A DNA stretch of 44,107 nucleotides from an uncultured Bacteroidales bacterium (GTDB lineage: Bacteria > Bacteroidota > Bacteroidia > Bacteroidales > Muribaculaceae). Position 1 is the stretch's first letter. Each line of letters starts with the position of its first letter. The DNA is taken from NCBI GenBank assembly GCA_902772455.1, contig CACYAW010000008.1:1-44107 (forward strand), written 5' to 3'. The notes beneath the pieces are model-generated. The model made no database searches and was not told the DNA's origin. It was given only the letters and a program-made list of their open reading frames with translations. This document shows, one piece after another, positions 624 to 44,107 of the stretch. The position numbers were made by a program, and so were the translations under genes.

Positions 624-3600
624 ATGAAGAAGCTATTTCTGCTGCTGATAGCCATTTGTGCTATCTCACTGGGCATGAGTGCCCAACAAGTAGTGAGGGG
701 ACAGGTTACTGACGCCAATGGCGAACCGCTCATTGGTGCCACTATCCAACCCATTGGCGGAGGAAACGGCGCAGCTACCGACGTAAACGGTGAGTTCTCG
801 CTGAATCTTCCCTACAATGTGAAGACCCTCAAGGTTTCGTATGTGGGTTACAAGACCCAGGAACTTCCTATTCAGCCCAGCATGGCCATCACGATGACTG
901 ACGATGGCACCGCTCTGGACGAGGTGATGGTAGTTGCCTATGGTACTGCCAAGAAGACCTCTTACACCGGTTCGGCCGAGGCTGTGACTAACAAGAAACT
1001 GGAATTGCGTCCCGTGACCGACGCTACCAAGGCCCTCGAGGGTAACGTAGCTGGTCTTCAAGTGACTAGCGCATCTGGTCAGCCCGGTTCATCACCTGTC
1101 ATCCACATCCGTGGTTATGGTTCAATCAATGCTTACAGCACCCCGTTGTATGTTGTGGATGGTGCTCCCTTCGATGGCAACCTGAGCTCGATCAATCCCT
1201 CGGATATCGAGTCGATGACTGTCCTCAAGGATGCAAGTGCCGCCGCTCTGTACGGTGCTCGTGGTGCCAACGGTGTTGTGATGATTACCACCAAGAAGGG
1301 TGTTGAAGGCCGCAGCAACATCATGTGGCGTTCAACCTTCGGTTGGTCATCACGTGCCACCAAGCGCTATGACCTTGTTGATCAGAAGCAATTCGTTCAG
1401 TTGATGTATGAATCACTGCGTAACGATTACGTTTACAACAACGGCATGGACTGGAAGGAAGCTGAGGCTGCTGCCCGCGCCAGCATGAGTGATGTCGATT
1501 ACGGTGGTGGTGAGCAGTACAACCCCTTCAAGAACTATAAGTGGGATCAACTGATCGACCCCGCCACTGGTCAAGTTCGTGCTGATGCACAATCTGCTTG
1601 GCAAGAGGACTGGTATGACAGCGTTATCCGCAACAATGCCTTCCGTCATGAGCACCAGCTGCAGGTAACCGGTGGTAGCGAACACGCACAGTACATGATG
1701 TCATTGGGTTACTTGAACGAGGATGGTATCTTGAAGACCACCAACTATGAGCGTTATACTGGCCGTGCCAACGTCAACAGCCAGATTACCGACTGGTTGG
1801 GTATGAACTTGAACGCTTCATTAGCTCACTCCGTTTCTAACTTCAGTGACTATGATGGCACCAGCACCAGTAACCCCTGGTACACCGCACAGTTCATCAA
1901 CCCGCTGTTCCCTGTTTACCTCAAGGACGCTAGTGGTAAGAACGTGCTCGACAGCGATGGCAATTTACAGTATGACTGGGGTGAGGCAACCCAAAATGGC
2001 ACCCGTCCCGGTTCGTTGAGCGACTTCTCGTCACTTGGTATGCTGATGCTCGATAAGGCTGACAACAAGCGTGACGTTGCTGGTCTGCGCACCGGTATCG
2101 TGCTGGGTAGCGACCTGGCCAAGTACGGCTGGCGTCAGGGCCTCAAGTTAGCTGTGAACTTCAGTTTGGACTATGTGAACCGCAACTACATGCGTTACAT
2201 GAACTCTCAGCACGGTAACCAGGCTAACGCTGGTGGTCTGTTGAGAAAGACCAACAGCCGTACCCAGAGCTACACCTTCAACCAGTTGCTGACCTGGGAT
2301 CGCACCTTTGGTGATCACACCATCGGTCTGTTGGCTGGTCACGAGTGGTATGCTTACAAGTACAGCTACCTGCTGGCTGGTAAGACCAACCTCGTTGATG
2401 GTATCTACGAGTTACGTCCCGCAACTACCTTGCTCGAGGCTGACTCCTATAGCGACAATTATCGCATCGACTCTTGGCTGGGCCGTATCAACTACAACTA
2501 CGGCGGCCGCTACTTCTTGAGCGCTTCGCTGCGTCAGGATAAGTCTTCACGTTTCCACCCCAAGCACAACAAGGGTACCTTCTGGAGTGTTGGTGCTAAC
2601 TGGCGTGTATCGGGTGAGAAGTTCATGCAGAACGTGGGTTGGATCAACAACCTGTCTGTTAAGGTCAGCTATGGTGAGCAGGGTAACGATATGCTCTCTA
2701 CTTACTATGCATGGCAGTCACTCTATGACCTGAGCTATAGCAATGCTTCCAACATTGGTGCAATGATTGCTTCACTGGAGAACCAGAACGTATCTTGGGA
2801 GAAGAGCCAGAACTTAAATGCTGGCTTCGACGCCATTCTGTTCAACCACCGCTTGCAGTTGAACTTTGAGTTCTACAACCGCTTGACCAAGAACATGCTG
2901 CTTAACCGCCCGATGGCCCTCTCAACCGGTTTCACTGGTTACATGGACAACGTAGGTGATATGCGCAACCGCGGTATCGAGGCTTCACTGCGCATCACTC
3001 CCGTCCGCACCTCTGACTTTGAGTGGAATATCACTGCGATGGCTACCCACAACAAGAACAAGGTCATTAAGCTGACCAAGGAGGCTCGCCAGATCATTAG
3101 CGGTGTACGCGTGATTGAAGAAGGTCTGCCCATCTATACTTATTATTTGAGTAAGAGCGCCGGTGTTGATCCAACCACTGGTACACAACTCTATTGGGCT
3201 TATAAAACCGATGATGATGGCAATATGATCGATGGCAGTGAATACATCACCACCGACAAGACTGTTGCTACTTCATGCAAGTACTACCAGGGTAGCCGTG
3301 AGCCGGACATCTTTGGTTCACTGGGTACTGATTTCACATGGAAGGGTCTGACCCTGAGCGTGCTGACTACCTACTCGCTGGGTGGCAAGGTTTATGATGG
3401 CCTGTATGCTTCCAACATGAGTATGTCATACCTCAGCTCCACTTGGAGTTCCAACATGTTGCGCCGTTGGCAGAAGCCCGGTGACATCACCGACGTGCCT
3501 CGCGCTTCACTGCAAGATAATTATCTGTCATCTGACCGTTTCCTGATCAATGCCAGCTATTTTGCTATCAAGAACATCACCCTTTCCTACGCATTGCCCA

Positions 3601-4328
3601 TAAGCTGGATTAGCAAGCTGGGTATGACGGGTGCCCGTATCTTCGGTTCGGTGGATAACTTGGCTCTGTGGACACACCTCAATGGTATGGATCCTCAGTA
3701 CAACTTCACTGGTGGCACTGACTATGACTATAGCCCCAACAAGACCTACACCGTAGGTATTGAGCTGAACTTCGGTAAGACCTATGCCGCTGCCGCTCCC
3801 GCCGTTAACGTGAACCTGCTGAACAGTCAGATCAACGATCTGCGCGCTCAGCTCGCCGAGGCTCAGGGTGTCGCTGCCGATGCTAACAGCCGTCTGGCTC
3901 AGCTGCAGAACGACCTGAATGCCGCTAACCGCGCACTCAACAGCTGCAAGAACGACTTGGCTGCTGCCAAGAATGCCGCTCCCAAGGTGGTTGACAACAG
4001 CAAGCAGTACATGAACATTCTGGTTCACTTCCCCAAGTCACAGACCAACATCACTGCCGATCAGCGTGCTAATGTAGAGCGCGTAGCTGCTTACCTCAAG
4101 AGCCATCCCGAGGCAACCTGCGTTATCAAGGGTTATGCTTCGCCCGAGGGCAAGGAGGACGTTAATGTCAAGCTCGCTAATGGCCGTGCCGCTAGCGTGA
4201 AGGATATGCTCGTCAAGAAGTATGGTATCGCTGCCAACCGCATCAATGCCGCTGGCCAGGGTATCAGCAACATGTTTGACGAATTGAGCTGGAACCGTGT
4301 TTCGATTTGCGAAATCATCGTGAAGTAA
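624..4328 (+). CDS. SusC/RagA-type TonB-dependent receptor with C-terminal OmpA domain
   Basis: Outer-membrane nutrient transporter of 1234 residues, driven by TonB and expected to work with the SusD lipoprotein encoded next. Visible in order: signal peptide (1-20, cleavage after MSA); carboxypeptidase-regulatory-like domain (about 22-95, with GEPLIGAT); TonB-box-like DEVMVVAYG (99-107); plug domain with LEGNVAGLQV, a VVDG motif, VLKDASAAALYGARGANGVV and ITTKKG; then the barrel, which ends at a typical final strand (YTVGIELNFGK, about residue 1052). Unusually, the chain continues with a 66-residue Ala/Asn/Leu-rich coiled coil (1053-1118) and a 116-residue OmpA-like domain (1119-1234) containing GYASPEG, NGRAASV and a WNRVSI end. 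Arg1188 matches the conserved peptidoglycan-binding Arg of OmpA; the usual Asp is Ser1173. Substrate unknown: no glycoside hydrolase or peptidase is encoded beside it. Confidence 0.95.
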   Translation: MKKLFLLLIAICAISLGMSAQQVVRGQVTDANGEPLIGATIQPIGGGNGAATDVNGEFSLNLPYNVKTLKVSYVGYKTQELPIQPSMAITMTDDGTALDEVMVVAYGTAKKTSYTGSAEAVTNKKLELRPVTDATKALEGNVAGLQVTSASGQPGSSPVIHIRGYGSINAYSTPLYVVDGAPFDGNLSSINPSDIESMTVLKDASAAALYGARGANGVVMITTKKGVEGRSNIMWRSTFGWSSRATKRYDLVDQKQFVQLMYESLRNDYVYNNGMDWKEAEAAARASMSDVDYGGGEQYNPFKNYKWDQLIDPATGQVRADAQSAWQEDWYDSVIRNNAFRHEHQLQVTGGSEHAQYMMSLGYLNEDGILKTTNYERYTGRANVNSQITDWLGMNLNASLAHSVSNFSDYDGTSTSNPWYTAQFINPLFPVYLKDASGKNVLDSDGNLQYDWGEATQNGTRPGSLSDFSSLGMLMLDKADNKRDVAGLRTGIVLGSDLAKYGWRQGLKLAVNFSLDYVNRNYMRYMNSQHGNQANAGGLLRKTNSRTQSYTFNQLLTWDRTFGDHTIGLLAGHEWYAYKYSYLLAGKTNLVDGIYELRPATTLLEADSYSDNYRIDSWLGRINYNYGGRYFLSASLRQDKSSRFHPKHNKGTFWSVGANWRVSGEKFMQNVGWINNLSVKVSYGEQGNDMLSTYYAWQSLYDLSYSNASNIGAMIASLENQNVSWEKSQNLNAGFDAILFNHRLQLNFEFYNRLTKNMLLNRPMALSTGFTGYMDNVGDMRNRGIEASLRITPVRTSDFEWNITAMATHNKNKVIKLTKEARQIISGVRVIEEGLPIYTYYLSKSAGVDPTTGTQLYWAYKTDDDGNMIDGSEYITTDKTVATSCKYYQGSREPDIFGSLGTDFTWKGLTLSVLTTYSLGGKVYDGLYASNMSMSYLSSTWSSNMLRRWQKPGDITDVPRASLQDNYLSSDRFLINASYFAIKNITLSYALPISWISKLGMTGARIFGSVDNLALWTHLNGMDPQYNFTGGTDYDYSPNKTYTVGIELNFGKTYAAAAPAVNVNLLNSQINDLRAQLAEAQGVAADANSRLAQLQNDLNAANRALNSCKNDLAAAKNAAPKVVDNSKQYMNILVHFPKSQTNITADQRANVERVAAYLKSHPEATCVIKGYASPEGKEDVNVKLANGRAASVKDMLVKKYGIAANRINAAGQGISNMFDELSWNRVSICEIIVK

Positions 4329-4462: not shown

Positions 4463-5989
4463 ATGAAAAAGATATTTAAATATTTGTTGATTGGAATGTT
4501 CGGCATGCTCGTCCTCTCGTCATGCGACAGCAAGTTGCTCGAAACCGAGCCTACCGACTCCATGTCGGGTTCTACCTTCATGGGCGACGCCACCAAGGCA
4601 CTCATCCCCCTGAATGGTATCTACCGCTCGATGTACACTTCTGGTTGGTCCACCACCGGTAATACCCATCAGTGTTTCGGCATCAGCGCCTATAACCTGA
4701 TGGCCGAGGTCATGGGTGATGACTTCATCATGGGTGCAATGGGAAGCGGCTGGTTCTGGTATGACGCAACCTATGACGTCAAGGATCTGTTTACCCGTTC
4801 GTCCTGGCGCAGCTATGACCTGTGGATGGCCTACTACACCTGGATTGCCAACGCCAACTACATCATCGCCGCCGAGGAAACCATGGAAGGCTCCAGCGAG
4901 GATGTAAGTTATGTCATTGGTCAGGCTTATGCCATCCGTGCCTACAGCTACTTCATGCTGGCTCAAACATTTGCTCGCACCTACAAGGGCCATGAGAGTG
5001 ATCCCTGTGTGCCTATCTATAATGAGCCTACAATGACCACAACTACCGGTCAGCCTCGCTCGACCGTAGCTCAGGTGTATGAGCAGATCGACAAGGACAT
5101 CAACAAGGCCGTTGAGTTGCTGGCCAAGTCGCCCGCTCAGCGCCATCCCAGCCACATGAGCTATGCTGTTGCTTTGGGTCTGAGAGCCCGTATCGACCTG
5201 GTTGAGGAGAAATGGGATAATGCTCTCAACGACGCAAAGGCTGCCATCGATGCCAGTGGCTGTGCTATTGGAGCCGTTGGTTTAGTCAACAGTGTTGATG
5301 CTTCGGACGTCATGTGGGGTGCACAGATTGTCAGCGACCAGTCTGGTATGTTCGCTTCGCTGTTTGCTCACATGAGCACCGATATTTCCTATGGTCAGCG
5401 TGCTCCCAAGCAGATCAGTACTTGGCTGTATAACAAGATGAGCGATACCGATGCACGTCGTGCTTGGTGGGATCCCTCCAGCAGTTACAGCACTGGCGGT
5501 TATATCCAGAAGAAGTTTGACTTTACCGACCTTCAGACCTGGACCGGTGACTACGTATGGATGCGTGTTGAGGAAATGTACCTCACCGCTGCCGAGGCTG
5601 CTTGCCGCAAGAGTGATGACGCTACTGCCAAGCAGTACCTCATGGCCCTCATGAGCAAGCGTGATGCTAACTACACCTGCAATAAGACCGGTAACAGGCT
5701 TGGTACTCTTACCGATGAGATGACAGGTTCTCTGCTTGAGGAAATCCTTATCCAGCGCCGTATTGAGTTGTGGGGTGAGGATGGCCGTATCTACACTATC
5801 CGCCGTCTGCGTCAGGGATTTGAGCGCAAAGCTGACTATGGATGGCCTGACAAGCTGTTGCTGCCCAACAGGCCTTCTACTGATCCTGAATGCTACATGT
5901 GGGTTCTTACCATTCCTCAGGCTGAGTTCGATGGCAATGAGAACTTGAATATTGCAACAGACCAGAATCCTGTTGGTGATTACAAATAA
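4463..5989 (+). CDS. SusD/RagB-family surface lipoprotein
   Basis: Substrate-capturing lipoprotein of 508 residues that should form the lid of the preceding SusC receptor. It has a lipoprotein signal with lipobox LSSC (Cys21), the N-terminal LLETEPTDSMSG segment typical of SusD proteins, a TPR-rich core (AYAIRAYSYFMLAQTF, then VYEQIDKDINKAVELL), and a C-terminal part with VWMRVEEMYLTAAEAA and EEILIQRRIELWGEDGR, all standard for this family. It lies 134 bases after susC and 20 bases before the next lipoprotein gene, so the three are probably one operon. The spacer before it holds the heptad inverted repeat, which could set the SusC:SusD ratio. The ligand cannot be read from sequence. Confidence 0.93.
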   Translation: MKKIFKYLLIGMFGMLVLSSCDSKLLETEPTDSMSGSTFMGDATKALIPLNGIYRSMYTSGWSTTGNTHQCFGISAYNLMAEVMGDDFIMGAMGSGWFWYDATYDVKDLFTRSSWRSYDLWMAYYTWIANANYIIAAEETMEGSSEDVSYVIGQAYAIRAYSYFMLAQTFARTYKGHESDPCVPIYNEPTMTTTTGQPRSTVAQVYEQIDKDINKAVELLAKSPAQRHPSHMSYAVALGLRARIDLVEEKWDNALNDAKAAIDASGCAIGAVGLVNSVDASDVMWGAQIVSDQSGMFASLFAHMSTDISYGQRAPKQISTWLYNKMSDTDARRAWWDPSSSYSTGGYIQKKFDFTDLQTWTGDYVWMRVEEMYLTAAEAACRKSDDATAKQYLMALMSKRDANYTCNKTGNRLGTLTDEMTGSLLEEILIQRRIELWGEDGRIYTIRRLRQGFERKADYGWPDKLLLPNRPSTDPECYMWVLTIPQAEFDGNENLNIATDQNPVGDYK

Positions 5990-6009: not shown

Positions 6010-6795
6010 ATGAAATTTGGTAAATATATTTTAGGATTAGCTATTGTTGCTGCCAGTTTGTCTTTGACCAGCTGTGACCAGGACAATGAGGGCGCTATCT
6101 TTGAGGGTCCGGCTCTGGCGAATGTATCATTCACCCAGAAGGCTATAAATACCGAGACCGAAGAGTCGACAATGACCATTCCCGTAGTGGTTACGCGCAA
6201 CTACTCTACCGAGCCCTACACTGCCACTATCACTATGACAGATGCCAGTGGCAACAATTTCAAATTGCAGAACAATCAGGTGACATTTGCTGCGGGTGAG
6301 CAGAAAGCCCAGACTGCGGTTGTCATCACCGATATCCAGGAGGGTAACCTCTATACCTGTAAGTTGCAGCTGTCAGACGCTGATGTTCAAACCGCAAATC
6401 AATTCGAGAACCAGATTCACAGCATGACCATTGAGGTTTTGCGTCGAGCATGGATTTCGTTGGGTATGGCTCACTACAACTCGCCCGAGTGGTGGGAAGA
6501 GGAGTTTGATGTTGAGGTGAAACAGGCCGAGGGCACCAATCTTTACAAGCTGATAGGTCTTTTCCAGGCTGGCTACGACATCTCCTTCACTATCGAAGAC
6601 AACAAGGTTTATGTTCCCAAGCAAGTATCTTGGGTTCATAGCGGTTATGGCCCCGTTTCGCTGTGTGGCTATGCTGGTGATAATAACTATGCCGGTCCCT
6701 ATGATCCCGAGACCAAGACGGCCACGCTCGACCTTGTTCACACGGTAAGCGCCGGTTCGTTTGGTGACTATGTTGACTATCTGACCATGCCGTAA
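6010..6795 (+). CDS. Putative surface lipoprotein, Calx-beta-like
   Basis: Lipoprotein of 261 residues with lipobox LTSC (Cys22) followed by an Asp/Glu-containing stretch (DQDNEGAIF), as in exported Bacteroidota surface lipoproteins. Residues of about 35-145 look like a beta-sandwich of the Calx-beta or related type (TIPVVVTRNYSTEPYTATI, then VTFAAGEQKAQTAVVITD). The second half, rich in Trp and Tyr (AHYNSPEWWEEEFDVEV and onward), is not recognised. As the third gene after susC and susD, with only 20 bases between stop and start, it fits the place of the accessory ligand-binding lipoprotein in an uptake locus. That role is inferred from position, as no binding site can be identified. Confidence 0.75.
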   Translation: MKFGKYILGLAIVAASLSLTSCDQDNEGAIFEGPALANVSFTQKAINTETEESTMTIPVVVTRNYSTEPYTATITMTDASGNNFKLQNNQVTFAAGEQKAQTAVVITDIQEGNLYTCKLQLSDADVQTANQFENQIHSMTIEVLRRAWISLGMAHYNSPEWWEEEFDVEVKQAEGTNLYKLIGLFQAGYDISFTIEDNKVYVPKQVSWVHSGYGPVSLCGYAGDNNYAGPYDPETKTATLDLVHTVSAGSFGDYVDYLTMP

Positions 6796-8090: not shown

Positions 8091-8234
8091 AGTTAACAGT
8101 TAACAGTTAATAGTTAACAGTGAACAGTTAATAGTGAAGAGTTGTATCAAGACGAAAGTTACTCCTAACTGCTCACTCCTAACTTTTCACTGTTCACTCT
8201 TCACTTTTCACTTTTCACTCTTCACTCCTAACTG
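8091..8234. repeat. Heptad inverted-repeat tract between convergent genes (copy B)
   Basis: Left arm 8091-8142 is a run of 7-base units (AGTTAAC, AGTTAAT, AGTGAAC, AGTGAAG). Right arm 8161-8234 has complementary units (CACTCCT, AACTTTT, CACTGTT, CACTTTT). An 18-base centre separates them. It can fold as a long hairpin in either direction and probably works as a bidirectional terminator. The right arm encodes the last residues and the stop of the leftward gene ending at 8208. Confidence 0.8.
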
Positions 8235-9194
8235 AGTAAGCATCTCGGCGGTGGTGCTGTGGCGCTTGCCGTTGAGGTCACTAAGATAGGCGTTCACGTC
8301 GGTGGGCGCCATTTTTTGTGCGTTGTTGAAGCGTTCGGGGCGAGTGATGCGGGTGAAGACCACGCGCTGGATTTCATTCTTGTGGCAGCGGCCCATGCTG
8401 TAGCCCATCTGTTCAGGGTGCTTGCCAGGCCCGTTCGAGGACCAGTAGGTGACGGTGTCACCCTTACAGCCCATAAAGATGACGCTGTGCCCGGCTTCTT
8501 GGTCAGCGGTCTTGTCGTCGTTGCAGCCGATGATGGCACCGCTGTCGCTGCCACGGCTATCGTTGCGGTTCCAGAAGATTTTCATCAGGTCTCCTGGCAC
8601 AGCGCGCGTCCAGATGTCGAGTGTACACCACTCATGATCAGACAAATAGCGCTCGTCGGGCATTTCGCGGTTGCGCTCGCTCTTGGCGCCGCGGTAGGCT
8701 GTAAAGCTGTAGCCGGCGCCCAGTTCACGCACCAGCACGCCCAGTCCAGGCCCGTTGGCGTTGGCACGTCCCCAGAATCCCACGCCATCGTCTTGCCCCA
8801 CCCCATCAGGGTTAAAGGCATCAGCAATGCCGACACGGGGTTTCATGTTCTCCCATGCCTTGCGTTTGATTTTGTGCCGGGTATCCCAGATGAGCAGGGC
8901 CTTGATGATGACCGCGTAGGTCGCGCTGGAGCAGAACGACGGCTGGGCCAGCATAGGTTCAAAGCGTGGCCGTTCGTCGCCTGGCGACATCTGATAAGCC
9001 TCATGCAGGCCGCGCCAGGTGGTCTTGGCAAACAGGTCGTTGGGGCGCCCACCGGTGTAGTAGCCTCCCCTATCGGGAAAAGAGTCAATTGCTGCGAGCA
9101 CTGCCTGCTGCCACCGCTCGTTCACCTTGTCGCCGGCGGTAGCTGTCACGTATAGGCACAATAGCGCCAAAAACGCAAAAAATGCCCTTTTCAT
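8208..9194 (-). CDS. Secreted cysteine-hydrolase-like protein (NlpC/P60- or CHAP-like, tentative)
   Basis: Exported protein of 328 residues (signal peptide 1-20, TATA before Gly21). Three features suggest a papain-fold hydrolase such as a cell-wall amidase: QPSFCSSATYAVIIKALL with candidate nucleophile Cys88, an intermediate AVPGDLMKIFWN segment (GD motif common before the active His), and AGHSVIFMG with candidate His236, then YWSSNGPG with a possible third residue Asn254. The overall similarity is by motif only, so the enzyme class is uncertain. The gene starts 12 bases after the superoxide dismutase stop and is probably cotranscribed with it. Its final residues LGVKSEK and the TGA stop are made from the heptad repeat, implying that repeat growth or insertion replaced the original end. 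Confidence 0.7.
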   Translation of the reverse strand: MKRAFFAFLALLCLYVTATAGDKVNERWQQAVLAAIDSFPDRGGYYTGGRPNDLFAKTTWRGLHEAYQMSPGDERPRFEPMLAQPSFCSSATYAVIIKALLIWDTRHKIKRKAWENMKPRVGIADAFNPDGVGQDDGVGFWGRANANGPGLGVLVRELGAGYSFTAYRGAKSERNREMPDERYLSDHEWCTLDIWTRAVPGDLMKIFWNRNDSRGSDSGAIIGCNDDKTADQEAGHSVIFMGCKGDTVTYWSSNGPGKHPEQMGYSMGRCHKNEIQRVVFTRITRPERFNNAQKMAPTDVNAYLSDLNGKRHSTTAEMLTQLGVKSEK

Positions 9195-21030: not shown

Positions 21031-21627
21031 ATGAAAAGGTTTATCTTAACAATGGTGGCAGTGCTGACCCTTGGGGCGGCCGCCAATGCGATGAGTTACA
21101 AGTCGGCCCGCGATCAGGCTTTCTTCCTGACCGACAAGATGGCCTATGAACTTGGACTGAGTGACGACCAGTATAATGCCGTGTTTGAAATCAATATGGA
21201 TTACATCATGTGTCTGGACGTGTATGATGACATCTTCGGCACCTTCTGGACCCGTCGCAATAACGAACTCAGGTTTGTGCTTTCACCTGCACAATACCAG
21301 TACTACATGCAGTTGGAGTACTTCTATCGCCCTGTCTCGTGGGAGAACAAGAAGTTTGTGTTCACCATCTATAACCGGTATCCCAAGAACCGCTACTATC
21401 GTGCTGCACCTCCGGGCTATCAGGTTTATAAGGGTTCCAACCGCTACTTTGACCACAGTGCATACAACGGACGCACCTTTGGCGCTCCCTCTGACAGATC
21501 GCAGCCCAAGCCTAGCGTGAGCACTCCCAGGAGCCAGCCCGGCAGCAGGAGCCAGCCTGGTATGATGACCAAAAAGCAGGCCGTCAATCAAGGCAAGCAG
21601 CAGATGAACAAACCGCCTCGCCGTTAA
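21031..21627 (+). CDS. Small secreted protein with basic Gln/Pro/Ser-rich tail
   Basis: Exported protein of 198 residues (signal peptide 1-20, AANA before Met21). The mature part begins with helices including SYKSARDQAFFLTDKMAYELGLSDDQYNAVFEINMDY. The L-S-D-D-Q-Y-N-A-V pattern resembles periplasmic Spy/CpxP-like or related LTxxQ proteins. An aromatic middle (YYMQLEYFYRPVSW, NRYPKNRYYRAAPPGY) leads to a low-complexity basic tail (SQPGSRSQPG, KQQMNKPPRR). No catalytic motif is visible. It has its own promoter and terminator, so it is a single-gene unit. Function unknown; the Spy-like resemblance is weak. Confidence 0.72.
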   Translation: MKRFILTMVAVLTLGAAANAMSYKSARDQAFFLTDKMAYELGLSDDQYNAVFEINMDYIMCLDVYDDIFGTFWTRRNNELRFVLSPAQYQYYMQLEYFYRPVSWENKKFVFTIYNRYPKNRYYRAAPPGYQVYKGSNRYFDHSAYNGRTFGAPSDRSQPKPSVSTPRSQPGSRSQPGMMTKKQAVNQGKQQMNKPPRR

Positions 21628-36927: not shown

Positions 36928-38829
36928 TTACTGCTGGTCGCTGTCCCACCATACGGGGATAGTCCAAGCGTCATCCTGACGGTTCCAGAGCAGAGTGTTA
37001 CCCTCACCATCAGCCATGCGTGCACCGGGCACCTTCTCACCAATTGCCTGCAGGTTCTTGCTGTTGTAGTTATACTCGTGTGAGCACTGACGCCAGCGGC
37101 GATACTGCTTGCCCTCGGGGATAGCCTTGGTTGCATTTGCTACCTGATAGTGATAAGCGGGAATCGACCAACCGAAGAAAATGTTGGGATCGAAGTCATA
37201 ACGGCGCATGTCATTCCAGATCTCATAAGAGAACATCAAAGCGATACGCTTCTGAGTCAGAATGTGGCCCAAGGTGATGTTACCGGCATTACCGATACCG
37301 TTCTCAACAAAATTGTCGATGGCATCTTGAGTCATGGGAGTGAATGACGGGCAGTCAGCAAGACTGGCATCTCCACCTTGAGGATTGATCCATTCATTCA
37401 GTTTGTCATTCATCAGCTCGCAGCTAGCCTTTACACCAGCTTTGTAGGCTGCAAAGGCGCCGGCCTTGTCGCCCTTCTTAAAGAGCACCTCAGCACGAAT
37501 GAAGCAGCACTCAGCATAAGTGCCTACGTACGTGGGTGAGCTTACACGGGTGTAGAAAGTGCCAGATTCCATTGAATTAGCATTAACGGGAGAGCCATTC
37601 TTCATGCCTGAACGGTAATAGATAATGCTTGGATTACCAAAGTAACCTTTACAGTCGCTGGTGCACTCTACATAAACAGTGTCACCCAGGCGAGCCTCGC
37701 TCTTCGTGTCAATATACCAACTGCTGGTTTCACTATTATACGCTGCGCGCAGGGGGCCACCATTGCTGTTAATATCGCTAGCCATGTCAACGCCCAATGA
37801 ACGGCGCCAGTTGCCTACCCACTTCACATCAGTGCGTGAATTGTCATCCTTGTTAGCGCTGTAAGCCCAGGGGATAATGTGGTCGGCACGGGGATCCTCA
37901 ACGCCAAAACCACCAAAGTTAGTCAGGTTGTCATAGAGCATCTTGGTCACCATGTAACCGGCATTCATACCGCAAACCGAGAACAAGGGAGAATAATCAA
38001 CAGGCTCATCCCATCCCAGCACATCATGCGTTGGGCCGTTATCATCGGTGTGGTTAATAATAGTGTTGTCAGCATTGTTCTGCATGGCCTTATCAAGACA
38101 GCGCAGGATTTCATCGGCATCATACTTGCCATCCTTATAACTACCAGTACCTTTCTTGTTAAGTTTGTTGATCCAACGAGCCTTCAACAGATAAGCCAGT
38201 TTAGTCCATTTGTTCACGTTACCGCCGTTCCACCAGTCATTGCCACTACCCAGAGTGGGCAACACTGGATTCTGGTTTGGGCTTTTCTCGAGGTATTCAA
38301 TGGCCTTGTCAATATCGCTCAAACAACCCATGTAAATAGTCTTGCCGTCAGCATAGCGAGGAGTCGCAGTGGTATCAACACCTGCTTCTTCATAGGGCAT
38401 TTCACCATAAAGGTCGGTCATGGCCATAAAGCCATAAGCCCTGATCAGTCGGCCTACACCTGCAAATTGCCAATTCTCGGCAGCTTCGGCCTTTTGAATC
38501 ATGTCAAGGACATTGGCGTATGCGCCAACAAACCACCATTGATAAGTCGTTGTAACTTGACCATCAACGGGATACCAGTAGGATACATGCCAATAGTTGC
38601 CACCATTATAGTAGCGGGTCCAGTCACCCATCGCCATGGTAGTGCGCCATGCGCTGAATTGCAAACCACTATTGGTATAGAACTCAATGTGAGCCAGACG
38701 CTGGTCATAATTTACGGCAATCGACGAGGGACTGTCAGGATTGACATTCACATCCAGCCAATCATTGCAAGAGGTTAGCGACAATGCCATTACCCCCAGG
38801 CCACATATAATTGATTTGAATAGTTTCAT
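36928..38829 (-). CDS. SusD/RagB-like outer-membrane lipoprotein (SusD_2 type)
   Basis: Lipoprotein of 633 residues with lipobox LTSC (Cys21) followed by NDWLDVNVNPDSPSS, the N-terminal signature of the SusD_2 (PF12771-like) subfamily. TPR-type helices include VGRLIRAYGFMAMTDLYGEMPYEEA and KLAYLLKARWINKLNKK. A later part has CCFIRAEVLFKKGDKAGAFAAYKAGVKAS and LTQKRIALMFSYEIWNDMRRYDFDPN, both standard. It is longer than the first SusD and from a different subfamily, so the two loci take up different ligands. It lies 131 bases downstream of its susC, separated by the second heptad inverted repeat. Only these two genes form the unit. Confidence 0.93.
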   Translation of the reverse strand: MKLFKSIICGLGVMALSLTSCNDWLDVNVNPDSPSSIAVNYDQRLAHIEFYTNSGLQFSAWRTTMAMGDWTRYYNGGNYWHVSYWYPVDGQVTTTYQWWFVGAYANVLDMIQKAEAAENWQFAGVGRLIRAYGFMAMTDLYGEMPYEEAGVDTTATPRYADGKTIYMGCLSDIDKAIEYLEKSPNQNPVLPTLGSGNDWWNGGNVNKWTKLAYLLKARWINKLNKKGTGSYKDGKYDADEILRCLDKAMQNNADNTIINHTDDNGPTHDVLGWDEPVDYSPLFSVCGMNAGYMVTKMLYDNLTNFGGFGVEDPRADHIIPWAYSANKDDNSRTDVKWVGNWRRSLGVDMASDINSNGGPLRAAYNSETSSWYIDTKSEARLGDTVYVECTSDCKGYFGNPSIIYYRSGMKNGSPVNANSMESGTFYTRVSSPTYVGTYAECCFIRAEVLFKKGDKAGAFAAYKAGVKASCELMNDKLNEWINPQGGDASLADCPSFTPMTQDAIDNFVENGIGNAGNITLGHILTQKRIALMFSYEIWNDMRRYDFDPNIFFGWSIPAYHYQVANATKAIPEGKQYRRWRQCSHEYNYNSKNLQAIGEKVPGARMADGEGNTLLWNRQDDAWTIPVWWDSDQQ

Positions 38830-38960: not shown

Positions 38961-41900
38961 TTACTTCACGATGATTTCGCAAATCGAAACGCGGTTCCAG
39001 CTCAGTTCATCAAACATGTTGCTGATGCCCTGGCCAGCAGCATTGATGCGCTTGGCATCGATACCATACTTCTTCACGAGCATGTCCTTCACGCTGGCGG
39101 CACGGCCCTCAGCGAGCTTGATGTTGTTCTCAGCGGGACCCTCGGGAGAAGCATAACCCTTGATGGTGCAGGTTGCCTCGGGATGGCTCTTCAGGTAAGC
39201 AGCCACGCGCTCAACGTTGGCACGCTGATCGGCGGTGATGGAGGTCTTGTTCACGGGGAAGTGAACGAGCACGTTCATGTACTGCTTGCTGTTGTCAACC
39301 AACTTGGGAGCAGCGTTCTTGGCAGCGTTCAGGTCGTTGCGGCAGTTGTTCAGCGCACGGTTAGCAGCAGCGAGGTCGTTCTCGAGCTGTCCAATGCGGG
39401 CGTTGCTGGCGTTCTGGGCGTTAGCAAGCTGGTTGCGCAGGTCGTTGATCTGAGCGTTCAGGTTATCGAGTTCGATGTTGTTCACGCGGGCAGGAGCCTC
39501 GTTGTCAGCACCGAACACCAGGTTAATGCCCAAAGCATACTGGCGGGTAGCGGGAACACCGCAGTAGTCAAAGCCTACCGACGATGAACCACCAACACCA
39601 GCACCAGAAGCAGCTACCTCGGGATCACCATCATAGTTAGTGAACAGCAGCAGGTTGTTGGCCGATGCAGTGATAGAAGCGCGCTTGAGATACTTGGTGC
39701 GGGCAAGCAAGCTGCGAGGCACGTCATAGGTCAACGAGATGGTACGCAGACGCAAGCTCTTCACGTAAGTAATCCAGTTGCGGGTTTCATAGTTATAAGC
39801 TCCAGTGTAGTAGTCCTTAATGATGTTATAACCACTCTTCATCTTGCCGTCAAACATGTACATCTGATCGGCTTCCCAAGTGTTGGATACCTCCTCGCCA
39901 GCAGAATTTACACCGCTGATAGTAAGAGACTCGTTGCGCCAGTCTGCTGAGAGTTGGCTTACACCAGACATCGACATAGCATACTTGGTGCCGTTGAAGA
40001 CGTCACCACCATAACGGAACTCCCACAACATGTTGAAGGTCCAGTTCTTGAAGAAGGTGATGGTGTTATTCCAACCACCCTGGAACTTGGCCTCGCGGTC
40101 ACCCACCTCATAACCAACACTGTTGGTAGTGGGGAAGCCGTTCTTGTCGAGGACGAGTTTGCCATCGGCATTGCGGGTCCACTTGTAACCCTCAATACCC
40201 ATGAAGTTACCGTGATTGTAGCTGGCAGCCTTAGCATTGCCATACTGCACATCGGTCAGATACATGACATCAAGGCCCTGAATCAGGTCGCCAATGGTAC
40301 CGCGGTTACCGGCAATATTGATGCCGGTTTCCCAAATGAAGTTCTCGCGTTGGATGGGCGTGCCGCTCAAGCTGATCTCCAAACCCTTGTTATAAATGTC
40401 ACCAGCATTGGTCGAGCAGAAGATGTAAGCAGTTGATTGAGCCGTACGCGGTGAGAGGATCATGTCAAATGAGTTGTTGGTATAGTAAGCAACATCAAAT
40501 TTCAAGCGGTTCTGCAAGAAGCGCAGTTCCAGACCAACCTCGGTCGAACGGGTGCGCTCAGGTTTCAGATAGGGGTTACCGCGAGACCAGCTGTTACCCA
40601 AACCAACAGCATCTCCAATATAGGAACCGACAGGCCACTGATAAGTAAGAGTCTCATAGGGGCCTGTATCCTTACCTACCTCAGCCCAGCTGGCACGGAT
40701 CTTACCAAATGAGAACCAGTCGGGCAGGCTCTCACGGAAGAGCTCGGTGAAGGCGATAGCACCACTCACGCTGGGATAGAAATAGCTCCAGTTGTCCTTG
40801 GGCAGAGTTGATGACCAGTCGTTACGGCCAGTCACAGTCAAGAAGATGGCGTTGCGCCAGTCCATGCGGAACTCACCGAAAGCCGATACCATGCGTTTCT
40901 TGCTGCTGCCATGCTTAAAGGCTTGATCGCTCTGGCGGGCATTGTCGAAACTATAAAATTCTGGAACGATAAAGTTCCAAGCTCTCTCATAGTCGGTGCG
41001 AGTCTTAATATAGTCAGTCGATCCACCCAACATCAGGTTGATATTGAAGTCACCAAACTGCTTGTTCCAGTTCGACATCAGGTTGTTGCTCAAGTAGCGA
41101 TACTTGTAAGTATTGATACTGTACATACCATTCTCCCATACCTTCTTGATGGCACCTCCAGGAGCAATCTGGTTAGCGCTCTCGGTTGTGTAGGTGTCAA
41201 CACCCATGCGATAGCTAATCCACCACCAGTCAAACAAATCCCACTTCACGTTCACGTTACCAGTGAAACGCTCCGTGTCATCGGTCATCTTGTTTTTGTT
41301 AACAATCCAATAGGGGTTGTCTCGTTCGTCCCAGGGATCAAGATTGGGAATCAGGTGGTAGCGCAGGCCGTTCTCATCCAGATAATGACGCATGTCATCA
41401 ACGGGAGACCAGTTGTAGGCGGCATAGAGCGTACCAGTACCCGATGAACCGTACAGGGCGGCACCCGTCAAGGTCTTGGTAGTGCGGGCATCACTGTAGG
41501 CGGCATTAGCGCCAAAAGTGAAGCGTCCTACCCTCTGCTCACCGTTGAAACGGAAGGTTGTCTTTTTGTAACCGGTGGTGGGAACGATACCGTCCTGATC
41601 GTAGTATGAACCGCTCAGGAAGAAGTTGTTGTTCTTGGTACCACCGCTAACGCTCAAGTTGGTATCCCAAATCAGACCTGTCTCCAAGAAGTTCTTCAGA
41701 TTGTCATAGGTGGGAGTACCTGCAGCAGCCTTTGGGCCCCAACTATTGTATGAGTCGGTCTTATTCTCAAGGCCAGTGAAGTTACCAGCAGTATAATTCT
41801 CTTGAATATAACCGCGGGTGTATTCTTTCTGATACTTGGGAAGGTTGCTGGCCATCGAGGCAATCATTCTGGTGGTCAAGCTGACCTCAGTGTGGCCTTC

Positions 41901-42704
41901 TTGACCTTTCTTGGTGGTGATAATAACAACACCGTTGGCGGCGCGCGAGCCGTAAAGTGCGGCAGCGGCGGGGCCTTTCAGAATCGACATATTGTCGATA
42001 TCTTCGGGGTTGATATCCATCACACGGTTAGAAGACGTTGTGGCACTGTTCATGATACCGTCAAATGCTGAGTTGCCCACAACGCCTGCCGAGTTGTCAT
42101 AAATGACACCATCTACAACAAACAACGGCTGACTGTCGCGGTTCTCGGCTAATGACGTACCACCACGCAGGATAATCTGAGCGCCCGAACCGGCAGCACC
42201 CGATGACTGGGTGATGTTCACACCAGCAATCTTACCCGACAGGGAGTTGATGGCATTGGCGCTCTTGTTGCGCATCAGTTCCTCGGCCTTCAAGTCGTCA
42301 ACGGCATAACCCAGCGACTTCTTGTCCTTGCGGATACCGAGTGCGGTAACTACAACCTCGTCGAGGACTTGGTCATTGGCTGTCATGTCAATGTCCATGT
42401 TGCCGCGGCCCACGATAACCTCCTTGGGCTTGCTGCCGATGTAGGACACGACGAGCACATCGCCAGGATTGGCGTTGATCGAATACTTGCCGTCCATATC
42501 GGTGGCGGTACCGCGGTTGGTACCCTTGACCTTAACGGTCGCACCGATGAGGGGCTCACCTTGTGCGTCACGTATGACGCCTGTAACTTTGTTAGCCTGG
42601 GCGCTGGCTGTGAAGCCCGTGCTGGGAAGCGATGTCATCCCGGCAGGTGCTCCGCAGGCGATTGCCAGAGCGGCCAACAGTGCTAATTGTTTTTTCATAC
42701 GCAC
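38961..42704 (-). CDS. SusC/RagA-type TonB-dependent receptor with C-terminal OmpA domain
   Basis: Receptor of 1247 residues. Signal peptide to about residue 35 (TASA), carboxypeptidase-regulatory-like domain (38-108, GEPLIGATVKVKG), TonB-box-like LDEVVVTALG (114-123), plug with SLSGKIAGVNITQSSG, VVDGV, ILKGPAAAALYGSRAANGVV and ITTKKG, then the barrel ending at YALGINLVFG (about 1065). A 66-residue coiled coil (1066-1131) and a 116-residue OmpA domain (1132-1247) follow, with Arg1201 at the peptidoglycan-binding position. The coiled coil and OmpA part closely copy those of the first receptor, while the plug and barrel are clearly different. MRMKK gives two possible starts; the first ATG is used here. 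It is divergent from the third receptor. Confidence 0.95.
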   Translation of the reverse strand: MRMKKQLALLAALAIACGAPAGMTSLPSTGFTASAQANKVTGVIRDAQGEPLIGATVKVKGTNRGTATDMDGKYSINANPGDVLVVSYIGSKPKEVIVGRGNMDIDMTANDQVLDEVVVTALGIRKDKKSLGYAVDDLKAEELMRNKSANAINSLSGKIAGVNITQSSGAAGSGAQIILRGGTSLAENRDSQPLFVVDGVIYDNSAGVVGNSAFDGIMNSATTSSNRVMDINPEDIDNMSILKGPAAAALYGSRAANGVVIITTKKGQEGHTEVSLTTRMIASMASNLPKYQKEYTRGYIQENYTAGNFTGLENKTDSYNSWGPKAAAGTPTYDNLKNFLETGLIWDTNLSVSGGTKNNNFFLSGSYYDQDGIVPTTGYKKTTFRFNGEQRVGRFTFGANAAYSDARTTKTLTGAALYGSSGTGTLYAAYNWSPVDDMRHYLDENGLRYHLIPNLDPWDERDNPYWIVNKNKMTDDTERFTGNVNVKWDLFDWWWISYRMGVDTYTTESANQIAPGGAIKKVWENGMYSINTYKYRYLSNNLMSNWNKQFGDFNINLMLGGSTDYIKTRTDYERAWNFIVPEFYSFDNARQSDQAFKHGSSKKRMVSAFGEFRMDWRNAIFLTVTGRNDWSSTLPKDNWSYFYPSVSGAIAFTELFRESLPDWFSFGKIRASWAEVGKDTGPYETLTYQWPVGSYIGDAVGLGNSWSRGNPYLKPERTRSTEVGLELRFLQNRLKFDVAYYTNNSFDMILSPRTAQSTAYIFCSTNAGDIYNKGLEISLSGTPIQRENFIWETGINIAGNRGTIGDLIQGLDVMYLTDVQYGNAKAASYNHGNFMGIEGYKWTRNADGKLVLDKNGFPTTNSVGYEVGDREAKFQGGWNNTITFFKNWTFNMLWEFRYGGDVFNGTKYAMSMSGVSQLSADWRNESLTISGVNSAGEEVSNTWEADQMYMFDGKMKSGYNIIKDYYTGAYNYETRNWITYVKSLRLRTISLTYDVPRSLLARTKYLKRASITASANNLLLFTNYDGDPEVAASGAGVGGSSSVGFDYCGVPATRQYALGINLVFGADNEAPARVNNIELDNLNAQINDLRNQLANAQNASNARIGQLENDLAAANRALNNCRNDLNAAKNAAPKLVDNSKQYMNVLVHFPVNKTSITADQRANVERVAAYLKSHPEATCTIKGYASPEGPAENNIKLAEGRAASVKDMLVKKYGIDAKRINAAGQGISNMFDELSWNRVSICEIIVK

Positions 42705-43147
42705 TAAACTTTAATTATTAAAAAATTGAAATTTACTTGCTTTTCTTTATTGGTGGTTTTTTAGCGTTCAGGGCTTGGTTACATCTTTGTTGAGAAGCAA
42801 AATGCTGTGCCTCTATCACCTTAATGTCCAATACCTAAAGTCTATAAGAGTAGGCAAATTTGCAAACAAAAATTCACATGACCAAACAATTTGGAAAAAA
42901 AATACTTTTATCCCTACCATAAATAATAGTTTTTGGTTAAAAATTTTGTGTTTTGTACAGTTTTTCGATGTTTTTAACATTTGCGTTTGTGAAATTATCC
43001 ACCTTTTTTTGGCTAATTCAAAAATTATATAGAATTTTGCACCTTAGTTAAAAAATATAAACAATAATAGAGCTGCTCTTGGAGAGTGGCTGCGGCAAAA
43101 GATAATTCAGATTTTTCAACTTAATATTAACAAATTAAAACGTGCTT
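42705..43147. other. Divergent regulatory spacer between two susC genes
   Basis: An AT-rich 443-base region without gene. The rightward promoter is described separately. For the leftward gene only a weak candidate is seen (TTTG, then TAGACTTTAG about 20 bases on). TTATCCACC at 42996-43004 resembles a DnaA box but stands alone. Confidence 0.5.
43008..43039 (+). promoter_or_regulatory. Promoter of the third susC
   Basis: TTTG at 43008-43011 and GAATTTTG at 43032-43039 are 20 bases apart; the -7 element differs from consensus at its first base. The leader is about 100 bases, with a possible small GCTGC/GCAGC-type fold near 43072-43093. Confidence 0.5.
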
Positions 43148-44107
43148 ATGAAAAGACATTTAGCTCTTTTGGGCGCATTGTTGATGCTATGCGGCACTGG
43201 TTACCAGGCCCAGGCAGCACCCGCGCCCCAGGTGACGGCAAGCTCCGCCACCAGCATTGTGACAGGCCGAGTGGTCGATGAACAGGGGGAACCCGTCATC
43301 GGCGCCAGCATTGTCGAGGTTGGAACGACCCGTGGCACATCTACCGATGTGGACGGTAACTTCTCGTTACGGGCAGGCGTTAATGCCAAGCTCCAGATTT
43401 CGTTCATCGGTTTCAAGACGGTGGAAACCCGCGCTAGCGCGAACATGAGAATCGTCATGGCCGAGGACAAGGCCCTCCTTGATGAGGTCGTTGTTGTGGG
43501 TTACGGTACGCAGAAGAAGGTGAACCTGACCGGTGCCGTATCGACAGTAGATGTTGACAAGACCTTCAACTCACGTCCCGAGCAGGATGTGTCGCGTGCC
43601 TTGCAGGGTGCCGTTCCCGGCTTGAGCATCATCAACGCCAGCGGTGACATCGACGGCAATCCCACGATGCGCATCCGCGGCGTGGGTACGCTGAGCAACG
43701 ACCAGAACTCGCAGCCCATGATCGTCATCGACGGCGTGGTAAGCGATATGGACGGTCTGCAGCTGCTCAACGGCAATGACATCGCCACGGTATCGGTATT
43801 GAAGGACGCTGCTTCGTCTTCGATCTACGGTACCCGTGCTGCCTTTGGTGTGCTGTTGATCACCACCAAGAAAGGCCAGAAGGGTGAGCGTGCCACTGTG
43901 AGCTACTCTAACAACTTCGGTTGGGACGATCCCACCTTCCTGCCTGACTTCCCCGATGTTCCCACCCAGTTGAAGTCGGCCATCATGGCTAAGAAGCGTG
44001 AGGGTTCAGACGCTGTCGAGCTCTTCGGTATGTACTTCGACCAGCTGCTGCCCTATGCCGAGGCATGGCAGAAACAGAACGGCGGCAAGAAGATCGGCTA
44101 CGGCGTG
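43148..44107 (+). CDS. SusC/RagA-type TonB-dependent receptor (partial, N-terminus)
   Basis: The frame is open from the ATG at 43148 to the window end: 320 residues of an outer-membrane receptor. Signal peptide 1-23 (QAQA), carboxypeptidase-regulatory-like domain (about 37-105, GEPVIGASIVEVG), TonB-box-like LDEVVVVGYGTQKKVNLTGAVS (111-), then plug motifs ALQGAVPGLSI, MRIRGVGTLSN, VIDGVV, VLKDAASSSIYGTRAAFGVLLITTKKG. The last residues are within the early barrel region. Whether it carries the OmpA tail of the two others cannot be seen. A susD would be expected next, outside the window. Confidence 0.95.
   Translation, partial: MKRHLALLGALLMLCGTGYQAQAAPAPQVTASSATSIVTGRVVDEQGEPVIGASIVEVGTTRGTSTDVDGNFSLRAGVNAKLQISFIGFKTVETRASANMRIVMAEDKALLDEVVVVGYGTQKKVNLTGAVSTVDVDKTFNSRPEQDVSRALQGAVPGLSIINASGDIDGNPTMRIRGVGTLSNDQNSQPMIVIDGVVSDMDGLQLLNGNDIATVSVLKDAASSSIYGTRAAFGVLLITTKKGQKGERATVSYSNNFGWDDPTFLPDFPDVPTQLKSAIMAKKREGSDAVELFGMYFDQLLPYAEAWQKQNGGKKIGYGV

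Follow-up and report, generated by a model that had tools for sequence, protein, structure and literature searches.

OmpA-type tails on SusC-family importers of a Muribaculaceae lineage: candidate tethers between TonB-dependent uptake and the cell wall

The stretch of DNA analyzed here (the window; 44,107 nucleotides, positions 1 to 44,107 of contig CACYAW010000008.1 in assembly GCA_902772455.1) comes from an uncultured Bacteroidales bacterium of the Muribaculaceae and carries, at 624..4328 on the forward strand, a 1234-residue fusion of a SusC importer with an OmpA domain, which we refer to as susC1. SusC importers are the main route of glycan and peptide uptake in gut Bacteroidota. Translation of the open reading frame and matches to Pfam and to the NCBIfam model TIGR04056 assign positions 624..3773 to the SusC part, which comprises the N-terminus, a CarboxypepD-reg domain (CarbopepD_reg_2, residues 24-103), the plug (Plug, 111-218) and the barrel. 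The TIGR04056 match (813.8 bits; cut-off 368.25) runs from residue 23 to residue 1050 and covers positions 2-981 of the 981-position profile, so that the barrel ends at Phe1050 (codon 3771-3773), close to the original estimate of about residue 1052. Beyond this phenylalanine lies a tail of 184 residues, in which a linker and a coil precede an OmpA domain. The coil forms a long helix at residues of about 1060-1117 (3801..3974, corresponding to residues 13-70 of a model of the tail alone), and the OmpA domain occupies residues of about 1130-1234 (4011..4325), with a match to PF00691 at 1136-1216 (49 bits; cut-off 27.2). A gene for a SusD partner lipoprotein, susD1, follows on the same strand (4463..5989; SusD-like_3 and SusD_RagB in Pfam). 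The full-length, above-cut-off TIGR04056 match and the adjoining susD1 place susC1 in the SusC/RagA family, and the Plug domain predicts TonB-driven import of a ligand. The protein is a complete SusC that is extended beyond its last barrel strand by a helix and an OmpA domain, as had been proposed from the sequence.

Structure prediction agrees with this layout. In an AlphaFold model of residues 110-1234, computed from an alignment of 36 rows (susC1 and 35 related fusions chosen from 73 loci), the last barrel strand is followed by a helix at 1063-1116 and an OmpA fold, and a model of the tail alone (38 rows; predicted local distance difference test score, pLDDT, 79.5; predicted template-modeling score, pTM, 0.52) contains a helix of 58 residues. 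The best solved Foldseek matches of the predicted tail are the OmpA-like domains 3td3 (E 1e-10) and 5u1h, and the best structural match of the whole model is RagA of the RagAB peptide transporter (PDB 6sln). Both models rule out that the tail merely supplies additional barrel strands, an arrangement that would have spoken against the proposed architecture. The ratios of nonsynonymous to synonymous substitution rates, estimated by the Nei-Gojobori method for 25 pairs of susC1 or susC2 genes, are 0.10-0.29 for the tails and 0.08-0.21 for the SusC parts, supporting the view that the tail is under purifying selection at the protein level.

The same kind of tail occurs on two further genes of the window. 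On the reverse strand, susC2 (38961..42704; Pfam and TIGR04056) encodes 1247 residues when read from the listed GTG, with a barrel ending at Phe1064 and a tail of coil and OmpA domain (38961..39512) that shares 75% identity with its susC1 counterpart, the last barrel strand included; its partner gene, susD2, lies at 36928..38829 on the same strand (SusD-like_2 in Pfam). The forward-strand frame at 43142..44107 holds the N-terminal part of susC3, a gene that the assembly has broken in two: the window's final 99 bases are identical to the first 99 of another contig, on which the gene continues, as it does in full-length tailed orthologues, to a tail that is 62% identical to that of susC1. A fourth tailed paralogue, susC4, is found in related genomes, and a SusD-type partner adjoins each of the four (susC1 and susC2 in the window, susC3 and susC4 in genome G081). 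The four barrels are only 25-35% identical to one another over aligned columns, as judged from reference copies taken from the window and two other genomes. When the three fusions of the window genome are compared in 60-base bins, the first four bins, which are mostly barrel, show a DNA identity of 0.38-0.66, as against 0.82-0.92 for the final one. In this genome, which is 87% complete, 13 SusC matches exceed the cut-off and 12 have a readable C-terminus; three of the 12 are tailed and nine stop at the barrel, as the original prediction had assumed ordinary SusC proteins to do. These untailed proteins, the untailed orthologues described below and the searches of the family and the phylum together rule out that the tail is a standard SusC feature.

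With a profile of the three tails, we found 104 fusion-grade matches (E <= 1e-69, within a search whose matches were listed down to E of about 1e-53) in 38 of 101 genomes of the genus, at one to four per genome; 94 of them lie in open frames of at least 1000 residues and 10 in frames of 223-851 residues. Because of this recurrence, misassembly or a chance extension can be ruled out. Outside the genus, no tail fusion was found in the family and phylum samples at the thresholds used. In the family, 18 of 297 genomes matched at E <= 1e-70, confined to one of 30 genera; in a second, smaller set of 109 genomes from the family (E <= 1e-25), the matches listed beyond the three fusions of the window genome were frames of 142-489 residues; and in a phylum sample (148 genomes, E <= 1e-14) there was no match outside the window genome itself. 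The profiles detect relatives of this type of tail, and a SusC fused to an unrelated OmpA domain would escape them. A search of the class yielded, among the matches listed from 19 genomes, 11 long OmpA frames that were fetched, eight of which were scanned: seven show PD40 besides OmpA, in most cases accompanied by TPR or other domains, with neither a plug nor a TonB barrel, and the eighth frame read (L184) is not the OmpA frame and has no domain match. Fusions of SusC with unrelated OmpA tails may thus occur elsewhere in the class. A scan of named genomes, which used patterns derived from the fusions and kept the best 80 of 103 relatives, returned 73 loci, comprising 71 SusC fusions (21 susC1, 13 susC2, 18 susC3 and 19 susC4) and two short frames cut by contig ends. 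The corresponding records are titled as Muribaculaceae, Prevotellaceae, Porphyromonadaceae or Bacteroidales bacteria and are mostly metagenome-assembled genomes (MAGs); all tailed genomes seen are uncultured assemblies. Source animals, where the titles give one, are goat, sheep, roe deer and water buffalo, many titles giving none, and genomes of the RUG series are presumably from the rumen. We found no description of a SusC-OmpA fusion in the open-access library searched, whose coverage leaves aside most subscription papers.

Comparison of tailed and untailed orthologues indicates that the tail was gained by receptors that already existed. The 38 rows of susC1 orthologues comprise 21 at 81-100% identity with frames of 1122-1260 residues, 11 at 65-69% identity with frames of 1048-1058 residues and six that are fragments or interrupted; the 62 rows of susC2 comprise 24 frames of at least 1209 residues, 29 of 972-1106 residues and nine fragments. 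All 18 untailed orthologues that were read (ten susC1, six susC2, one susC3 and one susC4) stop exactly at the phenylalanine beyond which the tailed ones run on. In the single tailed/untailed pair for which a DNA profile was drawn, the window susC2 and the untailed susC2 of genome G064 (84% protein identity), the barrel is collinear, the tail has no counterpart, giving a difference of about 550 bases, and downstream of the tail the DNA identity returns to 0.71-0.81. On a barrel tree built by a quick method from 53 rows (35 tailed, 18 untailed, including two long untailed rows of unsure placement), the tail label requires seven changes, six of which are forced by well-supported branches. The untailed susC2 genes of G064 and G033 (L069 and L071) nest among the tailed ones on this tree, and the OmpAs of both genomes fall outside the tailed clade, a placement that hints at transfer of a receptor without its tail.

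The tails themselves appear to share one source. On a midpoint-rooted tree of OmpA domains, built from 59 rows and 111 columns, a small number for a set of this size, the SusC tails group together without exception (99/88). Their clade adjoins that of the major OmpAs from tailed genomes (100/94), and the two have a joint support of 99/95. Since this single clade of tails stands beside the major OmpA of the lineage itself, one origin of the tail with later placement on four receptors is most likely, rather than four separate fusions. The sister relationship to the corresponding half of a standalone OmpA, together with the lack of any signaling domain in a Pfam scan of the susC1 fusion, makes it highly improbable that the tail senses the state of the wall or a substrate in order to regulate import or gene expression. 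As a separate observation, genome G073 has an OmpA of the tail-sister clade and no fusion-grade match.

How the tail has moved since its origin can be read in part from susC3, whose barrels fall into two subgroups that are about 51% identical in protein. In two cross-subgroup pairs, the barrel bins have a DNA identity of 0.44-0.76 and the last 500 bases of the gene one of 0.74-0.94; past the stop codon, identity is 0.71-0.82 at 100-200 bases and 0.49-0.60 beyond 200. Within one subgroup (G081 and G084), the tail (0.80-0.92) is no more alike than the barrel (0.87-0.94), so that stronger conservation alone does not suffice and recombination near the tail accounts for the pattern. The high identity at the end of such divergent receptors, and the one clear swap observed, a susC2 of G066 that bears a susC3-type tail, could suggest that the tail DNA is kept as shared homology for exchanging receptor barrels, with its protein function being secondary. 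We regard this explanation as quite improbable, given the purifying selection on the encoded protein, the predicted OmpA fold and the fact that 37 of 38 tails lie closest to a tail of their own paralogue, which argues that swaps between paralogues are infrequent and mostly rules out a regular exchange of tails among them. The OmpA-domain tree also pairs the susC2 and susC4 tails within G047 and within G050. A broader proposal, which we put forward tentatively and at somewhat less than even odds, is that this lineage of uncultured gut Bacteroidales has made core nutrient importers into wall anchors by one reusable OmpA tail of single origin on four SusCs that are 25-35% alike, the tail staying at its locus while the receptor is exchanged and tracking the host lineage more than the receptor.

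The OmpA domain of the tail departs from the usual peptidoglycan site. At what we take to be the Asp and Arg positions of the diaminopimelate site, the susC1 tail has Ser in place of Asp and keeps the Arg. This substitution had been noticed in the original prediction and is confirmed, although it does not mark the fusion: the motif GYAS followed by Arg fifteen residues on is present in 110 of 111 fusion rows (the remaining row, L135, has GFAS) and equally in all 21 standalone OmpAs read from the genus. The fusion rows include two loci cut by contig ends, and the two sets of genomes from which they were taken share some MAGs, so that the rows are not independent. Because the parent OmpA also has Ser, decay of the wall site after fusion is ruled out as the cause of the substitution, and the residue was most likely inherited from that parent. 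The missing Asp contact would fit a role as an oligomer brace, in which the coil would join the C-termini within a SusC dimer or connect SusCs to OmpA, leaving the OmpA domain as a passenger or as a module for protein binding. The susC1 coil is indeed heptad-like, with 14 of 15 a/d positions hydrophobic in the best of seven phases when Ala is counted as hydrophobic. However, the fit is moderate in susC2 and susC3 (9 of 14 each) and, judged by invariant columns, the OmpA domain is kept more strongly than the coil, so that we consider a brace unlikely.

The reading we favor, and hold to be probable though far from assured, is that the tail acts as a tether between the outer membrane and the cell wall that has been fused to TonB-dependent SusC importers. 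The C-termini of outer-membrane barrels face the periplasm. A single fusion event would have put the periplasmic half of the lineage's major OmpA, coil and OmpA domain, after a SusC barrel, and copies would later have reached other SusC paralogues, bringing the total to four. With the barrel in the outer membrane under its SusD lid, the helix, whose 54-58 residues would extend over about 80-87 angstrom at a rise of 1.5 angstrom each, could bridge the periplasm and let the OmpA domain reach the wall and dock on peptidoglycan. The likely gain would be an importer held at the wall, more links between membrane and wall, and resistance to displacement by TonB pull. Several observations weigh against this proposal. 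With Ser in place of the Asp of the peptidoglycan site, neither the fusions nor the parent OmpA preserve the usual binding chemistry intact; confidence in the full-length model is low (mean pLDDT 64.8, pTM 0.62); an untailed SusC (G018:C38:47582-50710) that is 53% identical to susC2 shares a contig with two fusions; and standalone OmpA-family genes are retained in tailed genomes, so that the tail is not required to replace them. Eight tailed genomes have 7-9 OmpA-family matches each, 4-6 of them non-fusion, and eight untailed genomes have 4-6 in all. These equal counts leave the idea that tails replace lost tethers unsupported; the fusions would rather add to existing ones.

The original prediction had named resistance to TonB pull, clustering of the transporter and sensing of the wall as candidate functions. 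Sequence alone does not distinguish among the possible gains of tethering, namely an anchorage that withstands TonB pull, additional links to the wall or exclusion of the importer from vesicles. The last of these corresponds to a sorting tag, by which the tail would retain importers in the outer membrane and out of shed vesicles, thus tethering with another benefit. Such a function seems distinctly unlikely, since the SusC of B. thetaiotaomicron is already retained according to published passages in which no tail is mentioned, although the same passages qualify this point in reporting other SusC-like proteins enriched in both outer membrane and vesicles.

Known systems resemble the fusions in part. 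They share with ordinary SusC/RagA proteins, such as RagA of RagAB, a full-length TIGR04056 match, plug and carboxypeptidase-like domains and a SusD partner, but add a coil and an OmpA domain after the barrel. Two-domain OmpA/OprF porins, represented by the lineage's own major OmpA of about 420 residues, have the related coil and OmpA domain, the sister position on the tree and the Ser variant; in the fusion, however, a SusC barrel with plug and SusD partner, an energized importer, replaces the N-terminal part of OmpA. A published precedent for a single polypeptide that serves both as nutrient channel and as wall tether is OmpM of Veillonella, a diderm Firmicute (PMC10628300). The fusions, whose tether role would be analogous, differ from OmpM, in which an SLH domain at the N-terminus precedes a porin barrel and which belongs to another phylum; no SLH domain matched susC1 among Pfam families, and the tests run gave no sign of kinship. 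PorE, a proposed outer-membrane-to-wall tether of Bacteroidetes, likewise has a C-terminal OmpA-like domain, but is a lipoprotein with TPR (CpoB-like) and TolB-like parts and no barrel, as described in PMC12204202. The PorE model NF052230 gave 24.1 bits on susC1 (cut-off 600), with no TPR or PD40 match, and the Pal equivalog TIGR02802 gave 35.1 bits (cut-off 125.35). A possible PorE-type OmpA protein has frames of 667-686 residues in eight tailed genomes and of 790-831 residues in six of eight untailed ones, the other two, G068 and G072, having 681 and 666 residues like the tailed genomes. The tail profile also matched a near-C-terminal stretch (758-834 of 872) of a Photosystem I chain (PDB 7f4v_aB), an unrelated membrane protein that is not of the outer membrane. 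We take this chain to be a Gloeobacter protein.

The fused susC genes flank a housekeeping block (mnmG, uvrC, nadK, ybeY and superoxide dismutase) in the window, in G081 and in G058, and in G052 the segment from mnmG to nadK lies between susC2 and susC1; the remaining fetched regions ended before the block or were spread over several contigs. In the untailed genome G004, susC2 and susC4 are also neighbors, both without tails. Downstream of susD1, a forward-strand gene (6010..6795) encodes a 261-residue protein without a Pfam family, relatives of which follow susD1 in other tailed genomes. Two further proteins without a Pfam family (21031..21627 and 8208..9194) are 79-93% identical in tailed genomes where met. 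No glycoside hydrolase family was found beside the fusions among the 26 window proteins scanned, and a sulfatase-domain protein lies about 12 kb from them. In G029 and G054 (L051-L054), the block from susC1 to a Big_5 protein is on the opposite side of susC2 relative to the window, a large rearrangement of the locus.

According to one survey (PMC12204202), no pal genes were detected in Bacteroidetes, which makes any extra tether in this phylum of interest. The fusions touch on how barrels that are pulled by TonB stay in place, and the paired tailed and untailed orthologues, which differ by about 550 bases in the pair compared, would permit a direct test of what wall-tethering does to an energized importer. 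The tail also exemplifies the spread of a domain across diverged paralogues after what was most likely a single fusion. If the tentative proposal of a reusable tail is correct, it would imply a physical link between TonB-powered import and the cell wall.
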